From Diplonema papillatum (lineage: Eukaryota > Euglenozoa > Diplonemea > Diplonemida > Diplonemidae): a stretch of DNA of 64,000 nt. Positions 18,195 through 63,138 of the stretch are shown here, one piece after another. The first letter of the stretch is position 1, and every line of letters starts with the position of its first letter. The translations under genes were made by a program, and so were the position numbers. The notes beneath the pieces are model-generated. The model made no database searches, had not been told where the DNA came from, and saw only the letters and a list, made by a program, of their open reading frames with translations. The DNA lies in contig JAPJBO010000602.1 of assembly GCA_030068145.1 (NCBI GenBank), positions 62,001 to 126,000 on the forward strand. Direction: 5' to 3'.

Positions 18195-21100
18195 ATGCAG
18201 GCGTTGGTCACCCTGCCTGCCGAGCGAAGACCAACGTGGGGTTTTCTGCTTCTCTTATTGCAGCTGCTGGGGGGCGGAGAAAGCGCTCTGGTGCAATCCA
18301 ACACTGGCGACTGTTACGCAGATACCGGAAGTGGCGCGGATACTCATTTCGAGTGCAGGTGTGATGAAGGTGTTCTGGTTGGTTTCCACTTTCATCAAGG
18401 CGATTGCAGTGCTGGGTACTCGCAATGCTACACGCGCTGTGATGATGAGATGTATCCGCGAGCTACACCTGCACCTCGAGTTTACCCTCAAGGACTATGC
18501 GTCACAGCGGACGTCATCGCTGACTGGCCAGGACTGTATGTAAGTCACTTCGAGCTGGGTTGTACCTGGTGGGCTCAAGCAACGTGCCCAGATTCGACGT
18601 TCGCAACTGACACCTATATGGTTGAACCAGGGGCATACTTCGGCGTCTCCACAAGAGAAACTAGTTCCTTCTCTACACCTTGTTACGGAATTGGCACCCT
18701 TACCATGTTAGTTGGATTCAATTCTTTTAACATTACCTGCCCTCCTCAGCTCTACCTGACCTCTTGGACAGTGGTGCAATGTGCAGGGGACGATTACAAG
18801 ATGGATTACATGTGTGCCACTCCGTCGTTGATGAGGACGACAAATGCACCATCAACAACAGCACCAATTCCAGCACCAGCCACCGTGGCACCACCACCAG
18901 CCACCGCGGCACCACCAACTGCAGCACCAGCCACTGTGGCACCACCAACCGCAGCACCAGCCACCGCGGCACCACCAACTGCAGCACCAGCCACTGTGGC
19001 ACCACCAACCGCAGCACCAGCCACCCTGGCACCGCCAACCGCAGCACCAGCCACCGTGGCACCACCAACTGCAGCACCAGCCACCGTGGCACCACCAACT
19101 GCAGCACCAGCCACCCTGGCACCGCCAACCGCAGCACCAGCCACCGTGGCACCACCAACTGCAGCACCAGCCACCGTGGCACCACCAACTCCAGCACCAG
19201 CCACCGTGCCACCACAAACTGCAGCACCAGCCACCGTGGCACCACCAACTCCAGCACCAGCCACCGTGGCACCACCAACTGCAGCACCAGCCACTGTGGC
19301 ACCACCAACCGCAGCACCAGCCACCCTGGCACCGCCAACCGCAGCACCAGCCACCGTGGCACCACCAACTGCAGCACCAGCCACCGCGGCACCACCAACT
19401 GCAGCACCAGCCACCCTGGCACCACCAACCGCAGCACCAGCCACCGTGGCACCACCAACTGCAGCACCAGCCACCGTGGCACCACCAACTCCAGCACCAG
19501 CCACCGTGCCACCACAAACTGCAGCACCAGCCACCGTGGCACCACCAACTCCAGCACCAGCCACCGTGGCACCACCAACTGCAGCACCAGCCACTGTGGC
19601 ACCACCAACCGCAGCACCAGCCACCCTGGCACCGCCAACCGCAGCACCAGCCACCGTGGCACCACCAACTGCAGCACCAGCCACCGCGGCACCACCAACT
19701 GCAGCACCAGCCACCCTGGCACCGCCAACCGCAGCACCAGCCACCGTGGCACCACCAACTGCAGCACCAGCCACCGTGGCACCACCAACTCCAGCACCAG
19801 CCACCGTAACTGCAGCACCAGCCACCGTGGCACCACCAACTGCAGCACCAGCCACCCTGGCACCGCCAACCGCAGCACCAGCCACCGTGGCACCACCAAC
19901 TGCAGCACCAGCCACCCTGGCACCGCCAACCGCAGCACCAGCCACCGTGGCACCACCAACTGCAGCACCAGCCACCGTGGCACCACCAACTCCAGCACCA
20001 GCCACCGTGGCACCACCAACTGCAGCACCAGCCACCGTGGCACCACCAACCGCAGCACCAGCCACCGTGGCACCACCAACCGCAGCACCAGCCACCGTGG
20101 CACCACCAACTGCAGCACCAGCCACCGTGGCACCACCAACTGCAGCACCAGCCACCGTGGCACCACCAACCGCAGCACCAGCCACCCTGGCACCACCAAC
20201 TGCAGCACCAGCCACCGTGGCACCACCAACTGCAGCACCAGCCACCGTGGCACCACCAACTCCAGCACCAGCCACCGTGGCACCACCAACCGCAGCACAA
20301 GCCACCGTGACACCACCAACTGCAGCACCAGCCACCGTGGCACCACCAACTGCAGCACCACCAACGGATGCCCTACCAACAATTGCACCGCAAACGAATG
20401 CACCAGCTTCACTTGTGCCTCCAACACAAACGCCCTTGATAGTATCCACAGACACACCGTCCCCGGAGCAGGGCGCAGGCGAACAGGATCCGGTAGACGG
20501 CGATGAGGTTCTGAGAACAATCCCAAAATCAATGCAAACTATCACACTCGTTGGATCTTACATCAGCTTGTCGCCATTCGGGACATGTGCAGGCTCGGCG
20601 ACAACACTGGCGATGGTGACGATGGACTGCCAACTAAATGGCGACCGCAACCTTCCAGTTTCTTTACACCCCTTGCAGATCAAAGTGGACGGAAGCCATG
20701 CCCTCGGGTGCGCCATTGGAAACATCGCACTGATAGTTACATTCTACTGGGTCTGCTACTTAGTTCACCGTCTGAACCCTGCAGCCGAGGAGAACCCCAC
20801 GGACCTTAAGCTGACAGACTCTCAATTGAGGTTAAAGCCTAGAGGCTTCAGCCACCTTCCTTCAGCATCTTTATGCATCGTAGTGTGGCTCTACCAGGGC
20901 ACTATTCTCAGCGGGCTCCTTCTCCTTTTTAAAGCGCCGTCGAGGTGGTCCTGGATAATAGGCTGCGTGGTAACACTACTTTGTGCAGTCCTTCCAGTTT
21001 GGGTATGCCTAAACGTTGTCCATGGCACCCAGAAAAAGAGCTTGGGGCGGTATCGGGATGATGGAAATACTGCCCGCCCTTGTGCAGCTTTCATCATAGG

Positions 21101-47228: not shown

Positions 47229-47365
47229 TGTCGCCTTGCACGGACGAAGCCCCCCCCTCCATGTGTCCTCACGGTGCTCAACATGTACCACCGCAAAAAG
47301 ATTTCTTACCTTTTCCTTATCCCTCAAAACCAACAACACGGTGCAGTAGTAAACTCTTGTAAAAT

Positions 47366-50095
47366 GACCCTTTTACTAGTAAATTTACTAGTAAACATTT
47401 TTACTAGTAAAATTTACACTTTACTAGTAAAATTTACAAGTGCACTTGTAAATTTTACTTGTGCACTAGTAAAAATTACAAGTGAATTCAGGTGTTTTTC
47501 AGTCCAAAACAGTGATTTGTAGGGGGTTTTGCGTGAAAAACTGCGAGATCGAAAACTGGGGAGGTTTGGTCGATGTGCACTACCCCTCGGACTGAGTTGG
47601 GCAGGGTTGTTGGGAGCCTTTATGGGAATCATCTCCCCTGATATACAGCCGCGCCGTTGAAAAAGGATGAGAGGAGCGGCGCGCACCCAACTGGAACTGT
47701 GCGCACTGTCCAGCCCCTTTACCCTGAGACTTTTGTTGAGCTAGTTGACAGCTGCCGAGGAAAAGCGTCTACAAAATGAGAAGAAACAGAGGCAAGAGAG
47801 ACGCACTGTGAGTGGTGTCGTGCCAAATTCACAACAGTGAAACACACTCTACAATGGCGACGTGAGCGGGGAGCGGGGAACCCTGGGCAGAAGCGGCCAC
47901 CTGACTGTTGCGAATACTTCCAGTCGGTCCGAGCATGCCTGCCACTTCCCGACACGCTTCGGCACGGGCTTTGCCCAAGCAGGGATCTTGACATTGTTGT
48001 TGCCGCAGTAAGGAGTTCCACACAGCCCATCAATGTAACACTCGGGCTCGACCATAGTAGTCAGAAACTTGTGAGGTTTCGTAAACATGAAAAAGCGGAC
48101 GAGGCAGCAGGAAGAGTGCTGAACGGACGAAGCGTCTTTGATGTGAATCGGTCTACCATGATGCAGGCCTCCAATATGTATGCGCCCAAGATGCCGCCGG
48201 CCTAGTGCAGATGGAAGAGATCGGCAGGTTTGCACGGGGGACCCTCGAGCATCAGAGGAACCGCAGACTCCGAGAGCAGCATCAACGGCAAGACGCTGCA
48301 CCAACTCCGGAGGTCCAGCGGAGCAGTGCGCTAGTGAGGCAATCGATTCTACAAAACGGCACAACGGAGATATGTGGTTTAGGGTGCAACGAAAAGGCCA
48401 CCTCTCAACACATTCTGACAGCGGGCGACACAGCGCACCTTAGATGGTTTCAGCCGGAGGCGGACCAAAGGCCGGTGTTCGGGCACCCACCCGAATGCAG
48501 GCCCTGGACGCCTATGCGAAGGGAACCACGCGGTAATCCGGAGAGTGGCTCTACGCGTTGCCCGGGAGACAAGTGCGCTGAATGGGCAACATGGGCCCTA
48601 CAAGCATAGGAAGAAGGTGAGAACGCAAGCACGGCAGCGGCAGCAACACCCCAAGAATCAACGACAATAAAATGAAGCAGTAGGCACACCGCGTTCGTTC
48701 CCAACACCCCGACCCGACCAAGCAACCACCAAACCCCAAGAAGTACTAATCTCACGGCAACAGCCCAAACAACTTCCCCTAGCACCCTCGTGTGACAAGA
48801 ATCCTCCAGTCCTCGAAACCCCCCGTGAATCTTCCATACCATAAGCAGAAGAAAGTTGGACCGGAAATATGTTGGACCGAAAATATGTTGGACCGGACAA
48901 AAGTTGGACCGCGGACGACCAAAACAATTGGACCATTTTGTCCGGTCCAACATATTTCCGCCCAGGCACGTATCCACTTAGGCGGGGTTGGGTCGATGGG
49001 CATGAGGTAAAAAAATGTCCCGTGACAAATGGGTAGTCAGGCGCGAGAGATGCGTGGGTTTCTTCTTGAGCGTACTAAGATCGTCGTTTATTGGCGGCTC
49101 ATACTTTTTCCTTCACGGTCAGCCAACCTCGAGCCTCCTCGTTTGCACTCTGCATTTTTGCGTTTGCACTCTACCAAAGCAATGGGACAGACGGTGGACG
49201 CATCTTGGTCCACCCTCGGCACTGACCAACCGCAACCGGTCGCGATCAAACATCCTTCCACGCAAGGAAGATCTTGTGATTCCACCACAGGACCATGGCC
49301 AGGGTGCTTCGTTGCAAGTTGCTGGAGGGAACTCAGCGGGTTACGCAGCGCCGCGCAGTGTTCGGGAACTCCTGGCGGCGGACCCATGCGCGACTACGGA
49401 GTGGAGCGAGTGCCAGCCGCAAAACTGCACGAAGCCCCCGAAAAAAGTTGGCCGGACAAAAGTTGGACCACCAGAGCCCAAAATAGGTGAGTTGGACCAT
49501 TTTGTCCGGTCCAACTTATTTCCGTTTACGGTATTTGCCTTTCAGAGTTGACCGCACTGTTGCCCACGACTCAGTCCAAAAAATGGATGCCAAGCCTGTC
49601 CGGCATAAGACGCACGCAGGCAGAGATATTCGTAACCTCCTGGGCCAAACGCAAGATACCAGAGCATCTTTTGCCGTGCAATGGCGCCCATCTATTTCTG
49701 GTACCAGGACGTACCTGTGCACGACTCTGCTCTGAGAGGACAAGGACGCCTCCTCCCTCGCGCTCCGTCTGTTCCGATGTTATTGTCCCGTGTTCCCACC
49801 GCATCGAGCCAAAGGGGGGTCGTGTTCGAGTGTTCACGTTTGCCTTGGAGTGGGGGAAACCTGGATTGACGCGGTCTGCCTAAGCGCGGGGCTCTCAAGC
49901 ACTGCGTTGACACTTTGCTATGCTCACCCAGCCCCATTTTGATGAGTTAGGTGAAAAAGAAGCCGGTTGTTCTGAATGTGTGCTTCACTTGCCACAGTTT
50001 CTTCTTGTTTTACCCCAAAACACCTGCCAAAACACCTGAAATCACTTGTAAATTTTACTAGTGCACTTGTAAATTTTACAAGTGCACTAGTCGAG
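47366..50095. mobile_element. Decayed palindrome-ended transposon, relative of 54.1-58.3 kb
   Basis: Both ends are arrays of palindromes built from CACTTGTAAA/TTTACAAGTG arms and TTTACTAGTAAA cores (47371-47485 and 50043-50092). Just inside, ACAAGTGA(A/T)TTCAGGTGTTTT is present in inverted orientation at both ends. The + strand at 49548-49905 carries broken transposase sequence related to the element at 54.1 kb. The middle (47.7-49.5 kb) has frames of protein-like composition (48205-48609) that I cannot align, and a duplicated TTGGACC(A/G)GA(C/A)AAA block at 48890 and 49450. Confidence 0.7.
49548..49905 (+). pseudogene. Decayed transposase fragment
   Basis: In shifting + frames this reads TQAEIFVTSWAKRKIPEH, then YFWYQDVPV, then LEWGKPGLTRSA. 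These line up in order and spacing with SQARKLLATLLMRTKGNEH, FFRYQDIPV and LEWANPGITLSA of the intact transposase (residues about 278-355). At least two frameshifts and a stop after the last block show it is dead. Confidence 0.65.
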
Positions 50096-53899: not shown

Positions 53900-54120
53900 T
53901 TGTGCGACCGTAGCGAAGGGCTGTACAGAGTGCGCCATCTAAACAGGCTGCAAAAAGCATGAGAGGAAGGTGAGCCTAACATTCTTTGTTTCCTGCTGTA
54001 CACCATAGTAAGGACAAGACGACTTCAGAACAAGTTCCATGCTGAATGGTGGAGAAGTTGCAAACGTTAAGGAAATTGAACAACGATGATGGCGTACACG
54101 ACGCACTTGTCATGCACAAT
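53900..54120. other. Left flank of the palindrome-ended transposon
   Basis: No gene. CACTTGTCATGCACAAT at 54105 may be a degenerate outermost palindrome unit. Confidence 0.4.
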
Positions 54121-54330
54121 CACTTGTTATATAACAAGTGCCACTTGTTATATAACAAGTGCCACTTGTTATATAACAAGTGATCACTTGTTATATAACA
54201 AGTGATTGCTTGTTATATAACAAGTGTTTGGTTGCAATTTCATAAGGAACCGGGGGTTGTACCTACCCACGAGGGAAGCAGTCCAGAAAATCACGTGTTC
54301 TGCAAGACACAAGGCTTTTGGCGAACAAAC
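54121..54330. repeat. Left palindrome array and inverted repeat
   Basis: Palindromes at 54121-54140, 54142-54161, 54163-54182, 54185-54204 and 54208-54226, separated by 1-3 bp. Then about 100 bp inverted against the right end, including CACGTG and TCTGCAAGACAC landmarks. Confidence 0.95.
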
Positions 54331-54759
54331 ATGTTACATTTGTTTGTTGAAGTCCGCCTGAAAGATTGCAGCCGTGTCGTGTAAATAAACTCAGAAAAGT
54401 AAGAGACTGCTTTGCAGCACCATGCCAAACGCAGCCCCAAAACACGCATAGTGCTGAAGGGTCTTACTTGTTCTATAACAAGTAGCCTGGTTTACCGATG
54501 TACGAGAGAAAAACACGTGATCAGCAAGACGCATGTACTGAAAAACGATAGCACCGCAGAAGCAGAGCCGTGGTGGAGGACGTCGCGTCGGCTCGCTCTG
54601 ACCTGTGGTCTCGGCCGCAGTTTCACGCATAGTTCAACTAGCTTTACCTCAATCTCGACCCCGGCATCAAGAGAACGTGAGAGAACCTCTGAGGGAAGCA
54701 TGTTCGGCTTCTTGAACCACCTTGATGCAGGAGAAAAGAACGCATCATCAAAGAACGCA

Positions 54760-56619
54760 TCACACAACGTGATGGTGCTTCATGTGAGAGTCTCTAAGCC
54801 TGGATGAGGAAAAGCTCGCTAAGCACAGAGGGCACTTTGTCTTTGTAAGCATATCTGAGTGATTGTACAAGACGTGTTGGCTTAACCCGCTTGTGAAAAC
54901 TCGCTTCTTGCAAGCAGGGCACTCTTGTTTGCACTCACACGGTACAGCTGGACGGTGCTGCGTGTCGTAGTGTGCGTAGAGACCAAAGACCTTCTTGAAG
55001 TGCTTATTGCAGATGATGCAGCTGAAAACGGCGTCCTCATCTTCACTCTCGAGTGAGCTCTCATACCCGCTGCTACTTTCGCTTTCAGACGCAAGAGGAG
55101 CTTTCCACGGCGTGTCATTACACACACAAAGCTTAAATTCAGAGTGTGTTTCGACGCCTGGGTTGGCACAGAACTTCTGCCCCCATCGCGTCGCCCGACA
55201 TACGGTAGCACCAAGGCCGACAACCTTTAAGCGCGCAATCAGGCTTCTAGTCGCTTTCTTCCAAGTGTCATCCTTTTGCGTAACGCACGTGCAAAACACT
55301 ATCACGTCGTACTGGAACAAGTTAGGCACAGCGGCGACGCATTCGGAAAGCTTCGGCAAGGGCCGACGTTTCTTGTCGGGGTGAAAATGCTTCGTCTGAA
55401 GCTCCAGCACCTGCAGATCGCGCTCCATCGTTTGCTGGGAAGTCCTTCCCACCCAACGCTTGCGCTCTCCGTTCATGTGCTCGAACATTTCGTCTGACAC
55501 TGCCAGCCTGTGAGCATCTTGCGGATCAAACCAGTGTTCCATGCTGTGGGCATAGGCCGACAAAGTGATGCCAGGGTTCGCCCACTCCAACAAGAAAATC
55601 AGAGCGTGATAACTTAGCAAACCGAGCAAGAAGTGTTTTGCGAAGTTGGTCGCACCCTGCGCGGAAAAGAAGCGAACCGGTATGTCTTGATACCGAAAAA
55701 AGACAAGCATATCCATCAAGCAACATATTGTGTGCTCGTTCCCTTTGGTTCGCATCAGCAGAGTGGCTAGCAGTTTGCGCGCTTGTGAACCAGTCATATT
55801 GCAGCCCACACTTCCAAGTACAGCTTGTTCCACCGCTGCCGCATGCGGAAGGGTGCGCAGGATGAGACGCATCACTCCCTTGACGTCGTGCAGGGCTGGG
55901 GTGACTGTGTAACATGGTTGGACAAACCGTTGGGCAATGTGACATGTGTAGCCGGCCTCGTGCATTTCTTGAATGCTGAGCCGCTCGCAACAATGCATGT
56001 GTTGTAGCCGATCTTTTATAGGCGTCGCACAAAAGGCGCTCCTGTGCCCAGAGCTACCGACACCTGTGAACAACGACCAAAGCTCCGCGTGATCTCCGCC
56101 GATGCGAAAGAGCTGGAGGGACACAGCTTGATCGCCCACGTGAAACGTGCCTTTCTGGACTGCGGTCAGCTGGGGCAAGCACTGAAATATCCACCACTCG
56201 TGGAAAGACGCTTTTCGCTTGTCGCTGAGTGTGAGGAAGTGTGATACCGTCTCACCAGCTACGAGGCCGATTGCTAGTCGCTGTCTAGAGGTCCGGGAAC
56301 GGAATGCGTTCCCTGGATTGTATCCATCCATGACCAGAAGAACTGATGGGGCCTCCGAGTCTGCCTTCACCGGAAACGTCTTCAGGAGAAAGCTGAGTGA
56401 TCCCGCAACACTCCCCAAAACCTCATTGGAAAGAACCTTCCACGGTTCATCACTCTTGGCTACACTCCCCTGTGAAAGGCCCATGCAAATACCGGTGCGC
56501 TCCTTCACTAAGGTTCCCAATCGTGCGCAATCCTTCAATGACATCCCCAGCTGACCACGATTATCAGCTATCAACTGCCCAATTGCTCGAACGGTCGGTG
56601 CATCCATTTTCATAGCCAT
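54760..56619 (-). CDS. Putative DDE transposase with three C2H2 zinc fingers
   Basis: 619 residues, intact. D98 (LLVMDGY), D176 (GGDHAELW, followed by FTGVGSSGHRSAFC) and E377 or E380 (YAHSMEHW...SDEMFEHMNGE) are spaced like the acidic triad of RNase H-fold transposases of the RAG1/Transib-like type. The GGD...C and YAH...E blocks drive this call. After an acidic Ser/Glu linker (511-530) come three C2H2 fingers: C534/C537/H550/H555, C567/C570/H582/H587 and C596/C599/H612/H616. It would bind the element ends, possibly the palindromes, and catalyse cut-and-paste transposition. Superfamily is not settled. A decayed homologue lies at 49.5 kb. Confidence 0.75.
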   Translation of the reverse strand: MAMKMDAPTVRAIGQLIADNRGQLGMSLKDCARLGTLVKERTGICMGLSQGSVAKSDEPWKVLSNEVLGSVAGSLSFLLKTFPVKADSEAPSVLLVMDGYNPGNAFRSRTSRQRLAIGLVAGETVSHFLTLSDKRKASFHEWWIFQCLPQLTAVQKGTFHVGDQAVSLQLFRIGGDHAELWSLFTGVGSSGHRSAFCATPIKDRLQHMHCCERLSIQEMHEAGYTCHIAQRFVQPCYTVTPALHDVKGVMRLILRTLPHAAAVEQAVLGSVGCNMTGSQARKLLATLLMRTKGNEHTICCLMDMLVFFRYQDIPVRFFSAQGATNFAKHFLLGLLSYHALIFLLEWANPGITLSAYAHSMEHWFDPQDAHRLAVSDEMFEHMNGERKRWVGRTSQQTMERDLQVLELQTKHFHPDKKRRPLPKLSECVAAVPNLFQYDVIVFCTCVTQKDDTWKKATRSLIARLKVVGLGATVCRATRWGQKFCANPGVETHSEFKLCVCNDTPWKAPLASESESSSGYESSLESEDEDAVFSCIICNKHFKKVFGLYAHYDTQHRPAVPCECKQECPACKKRVFTSGLSQHVLYNHSDMLTKTKCPLCLASFSSSRLRDSHMKHHHVV

Positions 56620-57067
56620 GGTTCTTTTGGGTGATCGAAAAGCAGCAACCTGTCAATTCGATTCTTCCACTTCAATGATCAGCAACATATGAAACGTGAA
56701 ACGTGGACCGACATATTGAGTGTCCGCTTCAGCTTACAATTAGTGTACTACAATGGTCAACAAGCCAGAACACCAAAGACGGATACTTCCACGTTTGTCA
56801 TCACACTGACCCATCGTTCAGTTTATTCAATTTCAACTTGCCCTCGTCCACGCCAGGAAACAGGGAGAAAAGCTGCCCAAGAGTTACATGTATCCCCTGC
56901 AATTGATCACCAACTTCTTGTTCGGGGCATTAAGAGGGAAAACAGAGGGGATTTGCTGCGCAAAATATTGGGTCATGATCAAAATGAATGTCGTCGTCAA
57001 AAAAGATAGGAGGTTACCGTCATCGGATGCGTTATCGGAATTGTCGGTGTCGTCTGCACTGGCGCGG
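56620..57067. other. Intergenic gap inside the transposon
   Basis: About 450 bp between the two genes. A short minus frame (56884-57102) starts with an acidic stretch (EDDRASADDTDNSDNASDD) that overlaps the end of the accessory gene in another frame. It could be the start of the transposase's first exon, but no donor was identified. Confidence 0.4.
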
Positions 57068-57980
57068 TCATCTTCGACTTGGTCTAATGACACGCCCAAC
57101 AATTCTGGATTGTTTCTCCAATTGCCCCGCTCGACGGTAAATCACCTGGTTGGCGGTTGTAGCCAAAGGAAACTTCACCACAGTAAGCCCTCCTGACTCT
57201 GTAACCAGCATGCTTTTAGTGGTGTCAATGATGACATCTGAAGGCAGAGTGTAGCTACCCTTGTAAAGGCCTGCGGCGCCTCCTGACGATGGTAGTTCGC
57301 GATACAGGGTGAATGCGAGGCAGTTTCCAGTGAGGAGGCGGGGGGTGAGCTTCCGGAATCACCGTACACCCACTTTCTATCACAATACAGTGATATGTCA
57401 ACGACTCCGAACCGACGGTCCCCTGCTGTTTGCCCACGACAGTAATGTAAGGCCATCTGGGGTTGCGCTTTCCTACAGCAGCACCGGCGCCCACAACCTG
57501 CCCTTGGAGTTTGCTTTTGTAGATGCTCGTCACATCTACGTTGTCAAGGCAAATATCTTTGACGGCGGCAGCTCGCAGACGAGTGTATGGTTCACCTGCC
57601 TTTTGTGCAGGCGTGGGGCTCTTGCGGAGGTAAACCCCGCGGAAAACCATATCGGTGTTAAGGCGGATCCTCAGCGCGTAAAGCTTCGTGTCGGTTGCCT
57701 CCGCCTGATTCTTCGCATAAAGCATGCGAGGAAACTTCGCACCGATGGCCTTGCTGATCCTGCCATCGCGGCCGCCGAGCTCGAAGCCAAATAGGGTCTG
57801 CACCACAGCTTTTAAGGCCACGTGCATGACCTCGGTGTCGTCTTTCGCCACGCAGTAAACGTCGACGAAGTCGACGATCACCTGGGCCGTCTGGGCCTCG
57901 ATGATGTCCGGCCCGGCGTCCCCCGACTTCTTCCTCTTTTTCTCCGGGGTCTTCGACGAGTTGTCACTGCGCTTGCTCAT
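57068..57980 (-). CDS. Transposon accessory protein, one frameshift
   Basis: ATG at 57980 opens MSKRSDNSSKTPEKKRKKSG, a basic nuclear-localisation-like start. It continues as a well-mixed alpha/beta-type sequence (QAEATDTKLYALRIRLNTDM, NPRWPYITVVGKQQGTV) to about VIPEAH. There the frame ends in low-quality sequence to a stop at 57255. Shifting by one base at the six-G run 57340-57345 opens a further 90 codons of good quality (LTGNCLAFTLYREL, TLPSDVIIDTTKSMLVTESG, TTANQVIYRRAGQLEKQSRI) to a stop at 57068. The product would be about 303 residues. Function unknown; being co-oriented with the transposase suggests a helper or DNA-binding subunit. Confidence 0.65.
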
Positions 57981-58124
57981 AATGTGGTTCTTCTGTTTCT
58001 TGTGGGAGAAGGTCCTGTAAAGTGTGATTTTTCACACGACAAGAAACTTCGACCCACAGAAGAACCCCGAATGAGCGGTTCGGGTGTCCAAATGCCAAGC
58101 GCGCTTGCAGCAACCGTTTGTTTG

Positions 58125-58299
58125 CCAAAACCCTAGTGTCTTGCAGATCACGTGACTTTCTCTCGTAGGTAGGTACAAACCCCAGGTTCCTTATGAAATT
58201 GCAACCAATGATTACTTGTTATATAACAAGTGATCACTTGTTATATAACAAGTAATCACTTGTTATATAACAAGTGACCACTTGTTACATCACTTGTTA
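58125..58299. repeat. Right inverted repeat and palindrome array
   Basis: The inverted repeat (58125-58209) mirrors 54229-54330. Palindromes lie at 58213-58232, 58235-58254 and 58257-58276, and a degenerate unit CACTTGTTACATCACTTGTT at 58280-58299. Confidence 0.95.
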
Positions 58300-58308
58300 G
58301 AAATATAA

Positions 58309-59642
58309 GGGTAGGCGTTTTTTTTTTTTTTTGGCCCATGTCCGCGCGCGCGTACATTTTTGGACCCCCCGGAAAAAAAAAACTTTTGCAAAAAAAAAAC
58401 TTTTGGGATCTGTGCATTGGAACCGGTCGTGAGAGCGACTGCAGGCGTAGTCACGAGCGTGTCCGGCTCGGGAAAAGTCGAAAACCTGTTCATCACACCG
58501 ATACTTCACGGCGATGCAAATCGCGTAGACGTTGTTTACCTCAGTGTGTATTGACTTTGAAGCCGACTATGCCCGGTGCTGGGTTGGTGCGCTGGGCAAG
58601 CAATATCGTGATACTTTGACGTTGGTGCCAATCTAAACAGCAAGATTTGCGTAGCTTTAGCCAGCTCCTGCTGGACGCAGTCGAAGCACGCGGGATACAA
58701 GCACAGCCTCAGCCTCGAAACCGTGCGCGGTTTTACCGGCAAGGCATGTCGGGGGGTTTTTTTGCCGCTGTGGTGCGATTATCACACAGAACCAGTCCGC
58801 GGGCAGTGCACGCGTCTATGCCTTCCGACGCCTGGAGCAGCTACTAGTAGGGACGTATCTGAGACTCGACTGAGGAGGCATTAAAAGGACGCAGGGCAAG
58901 CGATGCGTTCGCGGTGCTTGCGACATAGTGCTTTGCACTTGACCGGCGGCAATGCTTGTGCCGAGGTATATTTGCGAAGAAAACGGCACTCGGACCGTGA
59001 CATCGCAATGGGGCATGTCAGAAGAGAGATACAAGATTGACGGACACCCGCACAATCGACAGTCCTCTGGTTCACTGCTTTATCGTTCGCGGCGTACCCG
59101 GCGAACCGCGATCTCGAGTTTAAACCCGAGTGTTTTTTCTCCTGTGGCATCGTCTATCCTCTGCAGCCTTCGACTATGGAACTGTTGAACTCTAGACTGC
59201 CACCGCAACCCCTCGGACACATCAAGCTCACCACATTCATCTTTGAGCTCATCGTCCAGGAATTCCACCAACAACGGGCACAAAAGTGCCAACAGCGGAC
59301 CGGCCAGTAGTATAGCCGGTACATACGGTGTGAAGCGGTAGGTAGAGCCGGTACATACGGTGTGAAGCGGTAGGTAGAGCCGGTACATACGGTGTGAAGC
59401 GGTGTGTAGCCGGTACATACGGTATGAAGCGGTGTGTAGCCGGTACATACGGTATGAAGCGGTGTGTAGCCGGTACATACGGTATGAAGCGGTGTGTAGC
59501 CGGTACATACGGTGTGACATCCAGTAGCAGAAAGTCTTGTGGCAAAAGTTTTTTTTTTCTGAAAAGTTTTTTTTTTGCGCGCGCGCGCGTAAATTTCTGT
59601 GGGCCGACGGACATGGGCCAAAAAAAAAAAAACCGCCTACCC
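58309..59642. mobile_element. Element with GGGTAGGCG ends and TAA duplication (PIF/Harbinger-like?)
   Basis: The ends are inverted for about 100 bp: GGGTAGGCG, a T run, GGCCCATGTCCG, a CG-alternating stretch, and two A-run/CTTTT blocks. Flanks carry TAA on both sides (58306-58308 and 59643-59645). A TAA duplication fits PIF/Harbinger. The interior has a protein-like tail at about 58430-58554 (SGSGKVENLFITPILHGDAN) and a 31-bp minisatellite but no transposase. It begins 9 bp after the palindrome-ended transposon. Confidence 0.65.
59308..59520. repeat. 31-bp minisatellite, about 7 copies
   Basis: TAGCCGGTACATACGGTGTG then AAGCGGTGTG. Copies vary at GG(T/A)(G/A)G and ACGGT(G/A)TG. Confidence 0.95.
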
Positions 59643-59645
59643 TAA

Positions 59646-59965
59646 CTAGTTATGTCCCAAAAAAAACAGCTAACAAGTGCGTCGTGTAACTATTACGCGA
59701 GGGGGGGGGGGGGTTTTACTGAAAACAGGGGGCGATCCTTGCTAGCCCCTTTACCATGTGCGTTTGCCACAGAGTGCGGCGCTCAGTCTCCTTCTGCCAT
59801 TCAGTACTGCTGCTTCTACCATACGCATACAATCATCGATCAGCGGTAGCACTGTTAGTACGTCGTCTTGAGACAGGTTGGACTTGCAACTCGCGCGGAT
59901 GCTGCAGGTATTTTCAGGTAGCAAGGGAAGGAAGGAAGGAAACGTGACGGTTTGAGTCGGAGGCA
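59646..59965. other. No gene; G run at 59701-59714
   Basis: Low-complexity then unassigned DNA. Short frames only. Confidence 0.4.
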
Positions 59966-61629: not shown

Positions 61630-63138
61630 ATGCGTGCGAGGCACACAATCGCGATGCTTCTGACGCTGGCGAGTGCGGTCCGCGCCGCCACGAAGCCGAA
61701 CGTGATGTTTATTCTGGCAGACGACCTCGGCTGGAACGACATCGAGCGCCACGGCTCGCCTCAGATCCAGACTTCGAACATCAACGATCTCTGCGACGAG
61801 GGCGTGCAGTTGAATCGGTACTACGGCCAGCCAGTGTGCAGTCCGACCCGGTCGACAATCATGTCCGGGAGGCACGTGATCCACAGCGGGATCTACGAGC
61901 CGTTCTCGCAGGGGACCAACCAGCACTTGAACCTCTCGTGGAAGCTGATGCCGCAGTACTTCGCAGAGGCAGGGTACGACACGCATATGGTGGGCAAATG
62001 GCACTTAGGGATGAACCTCATGGACACCCTTCCAACCTCAAGAGGCTTCGCATCCTACCTTGGATACTGGTGTGGTGCTGAGGACTACTACACCCACGAA
62101 GCTTCGAGCAACGCTGCGACAGGATATGACTTCCAAGACATGACCGAGCCGACGTTCGCCTACAACGGCACGTTTTCGACGTTTGCCTTCACCGAAAGGG
62201 CAGTGAAGATACTGAGGGAGCAGTACGCCAATGCGAGCGCGAATCCGTTTTTTTTCTATCTCGCGTACCAGAACGTGCACTGGCCCCTCGAAGCGCCGGA
62301 GGAGTACATGCAGAAATGCGCGGGGAAAACTGGCGGGAACACAGCGAGGCAGACGGTTTGCGCCCTCGCGACGCTGCTCGACGACGGCATCGGCAACGTG
62401 ACGAGAGCGCTGCAGGATATAGGCCGCCTGGACAACACCATTGTCGTGTTTTCGTCGGACAACGGCGGACCGACGAACAACACGGAGGGCACGCAGAGCA
62501 ACAACTACCCGCTCCGCGGCGGCAAAAACACGATCTGGGAAGGCGGCACGCGGCTCTCCGGCTGCATCCGGGGCCCGAACCTCCCGAAGAAAACGGTGTG
62601 GAACGGCCTCATGCACACGACGGACTGGCTGTACACCCTCCTAGACGCAGCGGGCGCCGCACCGCCGGAGACGCCGCAGCCCGGGGATGGGATGTCCGTG
62701 TGGAGCAGTCTGTCGACGTCGAATGCGACGTCTCCTCGGTCGTGGATCCTGTACGAGACGCACCCGGACAACCAGCAAATAGTCCACGGCCACGCGTACC
62801 AGTCCGGAGGGATGAAGATCGTTTGGACGGGACCTTCAAACCCAGCGCAGGAGCATGGCTGGTTCCCGCCTCCCGGCCAGGACCCTTCGACGGTGCACTA
62901 CACAGTAGACTGCGGGGCACCTCCTTCGGTACCTTCGAACTGCGGGCCCAGCTGGTGTCTCTTCAATGTCACGGCAGACCCGTGCGAGTATCATGACATC
63001 GCCACTGAGCACCCCGAAATCGTCACGGCGTTGGTGAACGAGATCCAAGTGTACCAACCGTCCGCGGTTCCACCGCTCAAGGGGCAAGGCTGCGAGCCAG
63101 TCATTGATGCTCAAGGGGCGTGGAGACCTTGTGACTGA
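61630..63138 (+). CDS. Secreted arylsulfatase (sulfatase family)
   Basis: A complete intronless 502-residue frame. An N-terminal signal peptide (AMLLTLASAVRAA) directs it to the secretory pathway; ATG 61630 is the first in frame, and Met9 could also serve. FILADDLGW gives metal ligands D31/D32. C70-SPT-R74 is the formylglycine motif C-x-P-x-R. K122 and H124 (GKWHLG), H216 (NVHWPLE), D276/N277 (SSDNGG) and K298 complete the active-site set, so it should be catalytic once the Cys is converted by a formylglycine-generating enzyme. Length and order fit arylsulfatase B/N-acetylgalactosamine-4-sulfatase-like enzymes. It would hydrolyse sulfate esters, perhaps of marine polysaccharides, in a lysosome-like compartment or outside the cell. 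Substrate is not predictable. Confidence 0.95.
   Translation: MRARHTIAMLLTLASAVRAATKPNVMFILADDLGWNDIERHGSPQIQTSNINDLCDEGVQLNRYYGQPVCSPTRSTIMSGRHVIHSGIYEPFSQGTNQHLNLSWKLMPQYFAEAGYDTHMVGKWHLGMNLMDTLPTSRGFASYLGYWCGAEDYYTHEASSNAATGYDFQDMTEPTFAYNGTFSTFAFTERAVKILREQYANASANPFFFYLAYQNVHWPLEAPEEYMQKCAGKTGGNTARQTVCALATLLDDGIGNVTRALQDIGRLDNTIVVFSSDNGGPTNNTEGTQSNNYPLRGGKNTIWEGGTRLSGCIRGPNLPKKTVWNGLMHTTDWLYTLLDAAGAAPPETPQPGDGMSVWSSLSTSNATSPRSWILYETHPDNQQIVHGHAYQSGGMKIVWTGPSNPAQEHGWFPPPGQDPSTVHYTVDCGAPPSVPSNCGPSWCLFNVTADPCEYHDIATEHPEIVTALVNEIQVYQPSAVPPLKGQGCEPVIDAQGAWRPCD

Follow-up and report, generated by a model that had tools for sequence, protein, structure and literature searches.

The window analysed here, a 64,000-nucleotide stretch of Diplonema papillatum DNA, contains one member of a family of DNA transposons of the cut-and-paste type. 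The copy has an open reading frame (ORF) for a 619-residue transposase, a second gene (ORF2) that is broken here, a pair of inner inverted repeats, arrays of a palindromic site (referred to below as dyads), and a foreign insert nested near its right end (Table 1). Without the nested insert and one TAA, the element measures 4253 bp. The original prediction had recognised a two-gene DNA transposon and took the arrays for its ends, which it thought palindromic or possibly ambiguous, with a right limit at 58299. We find that the window copy belongs to family A, one of five related families (A to E) in this genome, each with a dyad of its own.

Ends and target duplications

Alignment of the genomic copies, which had been proposed as a way to define ends and target duplications, provided both. 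Followed outward from the inner repeat, the family A copies reach a single shared limit, the tip CACGACGCACTTGT, which is present in 18/18 left-end pieces (one of them, from C240, rearranged) and in 13/16 right-end pieces. The three right-end pieces without it are L038 (part of C1853, with the right tip in L008), L048 (C1752) and L049 (C189). Within the assembly searched (271 Mb in 2910 contigs), this 14-mer occurs 209 + 213 times, compared with 3 + 3 for the control; the published genome is approximately 280 Mb (PMC10161547). The palindromes were rejected as termini because the tips lie farther out: a single short inverted tip of the ordinary kind closes each end, which is neither palindromic nor ambiguous, and the dyads lie subterminally. 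The idea that the window copy has no right end was also rejected, as the tip was found 1.4 kb farther on, past the 1334-bp nested insert that splits the right array from it, and the true limit is 59686. We take the nested insert to be Harbinger-like from its ends and its TAA duplication; it holds an internal 30-bp tandem repeat at 59313-59517. In the rearranged A-type copy on C240 (L010), it is the left end that is affected, with one tip in the opposite orientation.

Flanks were compared for 28 pairs, consisting of 14 from family A (C240 being doubtful, given its rearranged end), eight from non-autonomous A-type elements, five from B and one from C. With C240 dropped, a 2-bp duplication was seen in 22/27 pairs (15 TA, five CA, one TT and one GG), the exceptions being C1439, C293, C428, C537 and C1733. 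With C240 included, 23/28 pairs match over 2 bp, against a shuffled mean of 11.5, and none of 2000 shuffles scored as high. Longer duplications were not found among the 28 pairs, a 3-bp match occurring in one and a match of 4 bp or more in none. The C488 insertion sits in a tandem repeat, and those on C114 and C36 interrupt a dispersed repeat that other flanks show in its unbroken form, which allows a direct reading of the duplicated 2 bp. For family E the duplications are AA, TA and one miss (2/3). Two elements (L105 and L008) are inserted at a TA adjoining a tip-like CACGGTGCACTAG... of another family, and such sequences may be favoured insertion targets.

Table 1. Positions of the family A copy and its parts in the window.
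Feature	Position	Strand	Remark
Target duplication, left copy (TA)	54095-54096	.	left flank ends TA
Left tip CACGACGCACTTGT (7-bp CACGACG + half-site)	54097-54110	+	exact match; homology boundary in A copies
Left array, five dyads, period 21-22 bp	54121-54226	.	site search
Inner inverted repeat, left arm (about 100 bp, in pieces)	54228-54330	+	
Isolated internal dyad, 3 mismatches	54465-54484	.	
Transposase ORF, 619 aa	54760-56619	-	
ORF2 as read in the window copy, 241 aa	57255-57980	-	
Inner inverted repeat, right arm	58116-58208	-	
Right array, three dyads (58213-58276) and degenerate copy (58276-58298)	58213-58298	.	
Target duplication of nested insert, left copy (TAA)	58306-58308	.	
Nested 1334-bp insert, ends GGGTAGGCG...CGCCTACCC, foreign to the element	58309-59642	.	
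Target duplication of nested insert, right copy (TAA)	59643-59645	.	
Rest of right end, including right tip (59673-59686, minus-strand CACGACGCACTTGT)	59646-59686	-	
Target duplication, right copy (TA)	59687-59688	.	right flank begins TA

Dyad arrays in five families

A search of the window at up to three mismatches to CACTTGTTATATAACAAGTG returned nine sites (mean 0.00 in 100 shuffles), namely the five of the left array, the isolated internal dyad and three in the right array, followed by a degenerate tenth copy that is 70% alike. The predicted count of five copies on the left and three to four on the right holds, and 5/9 sites are exact. Inverted repeats of about 100 bp do lie inward of the arrays, in pieces. 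Overall, the palindromes, the inverted repeats, both ORFs and the zinc fingers of the original prediction are borne out, and the array as terminus and the right limit are not.

Across the genome there are 962 exact CACTTGTTATATAACAAGTG sites and none of the reversed control. We counted dyads, allowing up to four mismatches in each, around the first 30 CACGACGCACTTGT tips cut out as loci. Within 400 bp inside the tip, at least two dyads were found in 23 cases, one in four and none in three, while no dyad was found within 400 bp outside any of the 30; the palindromes are therefore part of the mobile unit. The isolated dyad is located 258 bp inward of the array in 15/16 A copies read, and is absent in L011.

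The other families have dyads of their own. In family B the dyad is GCTAGTTATATAACTAGC and the tips read CACGACGCACTAGT; in family C the dyads are of the type ACTWGTAAA, with CACGGTGCAGTAGTAAA at the tips; family D has the dyad TACTTGTCATATGACAAGTA (339 sites, with one upstream end read, on C99); and family E has TGCGGTCAWTGACCGCA with tips CACGGTGGACCGGTCA (101 + 118 sites). Neighbouring dyads less than 60 bp apart are spaced by 21 or 22 bp in 257/287 pairs in A (25 more are at 50 bp), 60/62 in B and 21/23 in C; the counts for E (11/12) and D (3/4) were made with no distance limit. As the A counts take in related copies and are not independent, the weight rests on the agreement between families, where the period is kept even though the units are 17-21 bp long and differ in sequence. 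A period of 21-22 bp corresponds to about two helical turns, which puts successive dyads on one side of the helix.

The tips also contain a stretch resembling one half of a dyad. When start positions from base 6 to base 10 of the tip were tried, the half-site fit was best from base 8 at all eight A, B, C and E ends. A family's own half-site gave the best fit only in A (tied with D at one end), in C and at one E end; the B ends are better fitted by A or C half-sites, and E matches its own half-site at 6 of 9.

At E ≤ 0.001 the genome contains at least 74 matches to the A transposase, 71 of the 732 candidates having been scored. They include 15 full-length ones listed at 100%, 16 full-length ones from family B at 65% and nine from family C at 55%, besides others. 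The family E transposase is known from 107 N-terminal residues, which hhalign aligns to the A profile with a probability of 82.7 and an E-value of 9.5e-6. Matches to the second gene number 116, fragments included; many adjoin A, B or C transposases, and in these three families ORF2 is linked to the transposase and travels with it, as predicted. The family B second protein is identical to a Diplonema papillatum database protein, and that of family C is nearly so by eye. Near-identical copies at different sites suggest recent movement. According to the genome paper, repeats in the Diplonema assembly may be duplicated or collapsed (PMC10161547); despite this caveat, the flanks of the near-identical copies differ.

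A relic of family C is also present in the window at 47337-50091, with an exact tip CACGGTGCAGTAGTAAA at 47337, dyad arrays of 21-bp period at 47403-47484 and 50043-50088, and no ORF longer than 178 aa between them. Elsewhere, a 502-aa ORF at 61630-63138 strongly matches a sulfatase domain (PF00884, E 1.2e-49), and approximately 49 tandem copies of a 30-bp unit lie within overlapping long ORFs at 18895-20360.

Predicted folds of the two proteins

The transposase is predicted to be of RNase H type with a RAG1/Transib-type core. The predicted fold of residues 9-417 matches the RAG1 core, including D98, D176, H358/H362 and E380; both the RNase H fold and the core residues suggested from sequence (D98, D176 and a glutamate at 377-380) are thus supported by the model. 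The core is followed by a small domain at about 430-505, an acidic linker and, from residue 534, the three expected C2H2-like fingers, with CxxC at 534, 567 and 596 and a later HxxxH or HxxxxH in each. Zinc-finger models match the protein only under their curated cut-offs; the finger cysteines and most of the finger histidines are conserved in ten aligned relatives, and H358-x3-H362 is invariant in 10/10 aligned sequences. In RAG1 a nonamer-binding domain precedes the core. As the match to RAG1 begins at residue 9, no such domain precedes it here; also unlike RAG1, the fingers are C-terminal to the core and the C(2)C motif is reduced to its first cysteine. This is C197, which is conserved and located about where RAG1 has C727, and the window transposase has no CxxC between residues 176 and 380. 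Pfam and NCBIfam searches with the transposase returned nothing beyond zinc fingers; none of the transposase models in Pfam, the tnp2 type of EnSpm/CACTA included, reached E ≤ 1, in a search that could miss distant relatives. A sequence search against solved structures gave fingers or chance matches only. Among viral contigs, 46 stretches fit a pattern and none encodes a relative.

Frameshifts have left the window with a 241-aa ORF2, whereas sister copies encode the intact protein of 328 aa; relative to these, the window copy has gained 1 bp at two places and lost 78 bp at another. For the 328-aa form, the predicted structure (mean predicted local distance difference test score, pLDDT, 63) comprises an RFX-like winged helix, an alpha-crystallin-like domain and an acidic tail. 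No Pfam or NCBIfam match above chance was obtained for ORF2, and RAG2 is absent among the matches listed in a structure comparison with this model of a winged helix and a beta sandwich.

The ratio of non-synonymous to synonymous substitution rates (dN/dS) is 0.12 between the A and B transposases and, for ORF2, 0.22 between A and B and 0.16 between B and C; these values are obtained at a dS of 2.2 to 3.9, near saturation, and 5/8 comparisons yielded no value.

Relation to known systems and proposed joining of the ends

Families C and E have CACGGTG as their first seven tip bases, one off the heptamer of the recombination signal sequence, CACAGTG. The element resembles Transib, ProtoRAG and RAG1 in its tips, which start with CAC, and in a core predicted to fold like that of RAG1 and to carry D-D-E, ExxN and HxxxH. 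Tc1/mariner elements have a strict TA duplication, whereas 7 of the 22 duplications here are not TA. Kolobok and piggyBac target TTAA; no TTAA duplication was found, with a 4-bp match in 0/28 pairs. The 8-bp duplication of Zisupton (KDZ) (PMC12730594) was also seen in 0/28 pairs. Transib and RAG-like (RAGL) elements almost always make 5-bp duplications (PMC7204232), in contrast to 2 bp here (5-bp match 0/28), and RAGL has a RAG2-like kelch partner gene; among the matches listed for the Diplonema partner protein there is no RAG2. The ESTA lineage of the fungal CMCT clade shares TA duplications and a transposase found RAG1-like by HHpred, and the clade mostly has CA..TG ends with 2-5 bp duplications (PMC12730594), compared with CACG...CGTG and 2 bp (22/27 pairs) in Diplonema. 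Compared by description only, ESTA differs in being fungal and TET/JBP-associated and in keeping C(2)C, and the passages of that paper drawn on mention no dyad arrays (PMC12730594).

By analogy, the system that the element works most like is En/Spm (CACTA). Both have short inverted tips starting CAC, a transposase with a second DNA-binding protein, and subterminal motifs in direct and inverted orientation, which in the soybean Tgmt* elements can form stem-loops; in both, the motif (and in En/Spm its binder) varies by family (PMC2613891). However, En/Spm elements have CACTA tips, alternative splicing and, in Tgmt*, a 3-bp duplication (PMC2613891), whereas here we find CACGRYG tips (CACGA or CACGG), two separate uninterrupted ORFs and a 2-bp duplication (3-bp match 1/28 pairs). 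The regular two-turn dyad array has no counterpart in the portion of the En/Spm description consulted (PMC2613891). We do not place the element in EnSpm, Transib or RAGL, because it departs from them in its tips and in the length of its duplication and has not retained the C(2)C of the clade. The original prediction knew of no described family with such ends. A literature search for the element, for dyad arrays in transposon ends and for related lineages (open-licence papers, Repbase lying outside it) found it named in none of the titles and abstract starts listed. The plan itself is familiar, since subterminal site arrays are known from En/Spm, Hermes and piggyBat and palindromic sites of 19 bp occur in piggyBac (PMC11707139), and the end structure is thus an unusual version of it.

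The best explanation of the whole, to which we give a probability of roughly 0.6, is a RAG1-core transposon in which ORF2 binds the dyads to synapse the ends. The transposase would cut at the 14-bp tips, CACGACG plus half-site, and insertion makes a 2-bp target duplication, preferably of TA. Inward of each tip, the variable number of dyads phased at about two helical turns would be bound by ORF2 dimers, the alpha-crystallin-like domain serving for dimerisation or oligomerisation. ORF2 would then coat and bend both ends and join them for the transposase, comparable to TNPA in En/Spm. Of this account, the transposon with its ends and target duplications, the arrays lying within the ends, the private dyads of common period and the linkage of the two genes are shown, and the folds come from models; we infer recognition of the dyads by ORF2 in place of the transposase fingers, and its oligomerisation. 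More speculatively, the element could represent a deep, undescribed Euglenozoa lineage of RAG1-core transposons, in which small-heat-shock-type oligomerisation of ORF2 builds a filament on the two-turn dyads that pairs the ends, and in which families escape their sisters through dyad sequence with the spacing kept.

A possible but doubtful alternative assigns dyad binding to the transposase, by way of its three C2H2-like fingers or its helical N-terminus and with one dimer per dyad, and leaves ORF2 with a different task. The conservation of the fingers described above is in line with this, as is the half-site-like stretch of the tip, presumably touched by the transposase; furthermore, in piggyBac/piggyBat and Hermes (hAT), zinc domains of the transposase, such as the CRDs of piggyBac and the BED domains of Hermes, recognise subterminal sites that are palindromic or nearly so (PMC11707139, PMC10368747). 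However, the fingers are 56-71% alike across families with different dyads, a weak point given 55-65% for the whole protein, and ORF2 combines a winged helix, as predicted, with a domain of a dimerising type.

We regard it as improbable that ORF2 is an anti-silencing factor akin to VANC of the Arabidopsis VANDALs, which are MULE-type elements, reading a fast-diverging motif and keeping its own family unmethylated with no role in synapsis. VANC is element-encoded and targets family-specific, short, tandem, non-coding motifs (PMC10398659), and each family here has a private motif; in addition, DNA methyltransferase homologues are reported in the Diplonema genome paper (PMC10161547). However, the VANC motifs are not described as dyads in the sections of that paper drawn on (PMC10398659), and anti-silencing alone does not require sites inside both tips, dyad symmetry or a two-turn period in five families.

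Action of the palindromes as DNA, with cruciforms or hairpins marking or protecting the ends and no dyad-binding protein, is very unlikely and was rejected as the principal account. A total of 195/362 A units are perfect palindromes, and all two-sided changes are complementary (19/19, 4/4 and 1/1 at pairs 1, 2 and 9, pair 1 being outermost), as cruciforms would predict. One-sided changes are far commoner at the same pairs, however (133, 122 and 32 units), 16/23 family C dyads with two clean halves pair different half-sites that would mispair, and the two-turn period suggests a protein surface. Neutral tandem repeats expanding by chance in the ends were similarly rejected as hardly credible: array length does vary among near-identical copies (about 3-9 dyads left and 3-19 right), but five families with different units share symmetry, place and the 21-22 bp period, and base pairs 3-8 of the A units are each changed in only 2 to 6 of the 362.

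Descriptions of RAG-like transposons that have RAG2 as their partner come from animal phyla (PMC7204232). For Diplonema, the genome paper names TATE-, MULE- and Helitron-like DNA transposon proteins and, in the 12 of 17 places covered, not the present element (PMC10161547). The element described here represents a transposon lineage, absent from the literature listed, whose copies are near-identical, whose transposase is predicted to be of RAG1 type and whose partner protein is unfamiliar; the family was apparently active until recently. A RAG1-type core working with a quite different partner in diplonemids would widen the known working range of such recombinases. The presence of five families in a single genome, different in their dyads and alike in the two-turn spacing, amounts to a natural experiment on joint change in transposon ends and the proteins that read them.

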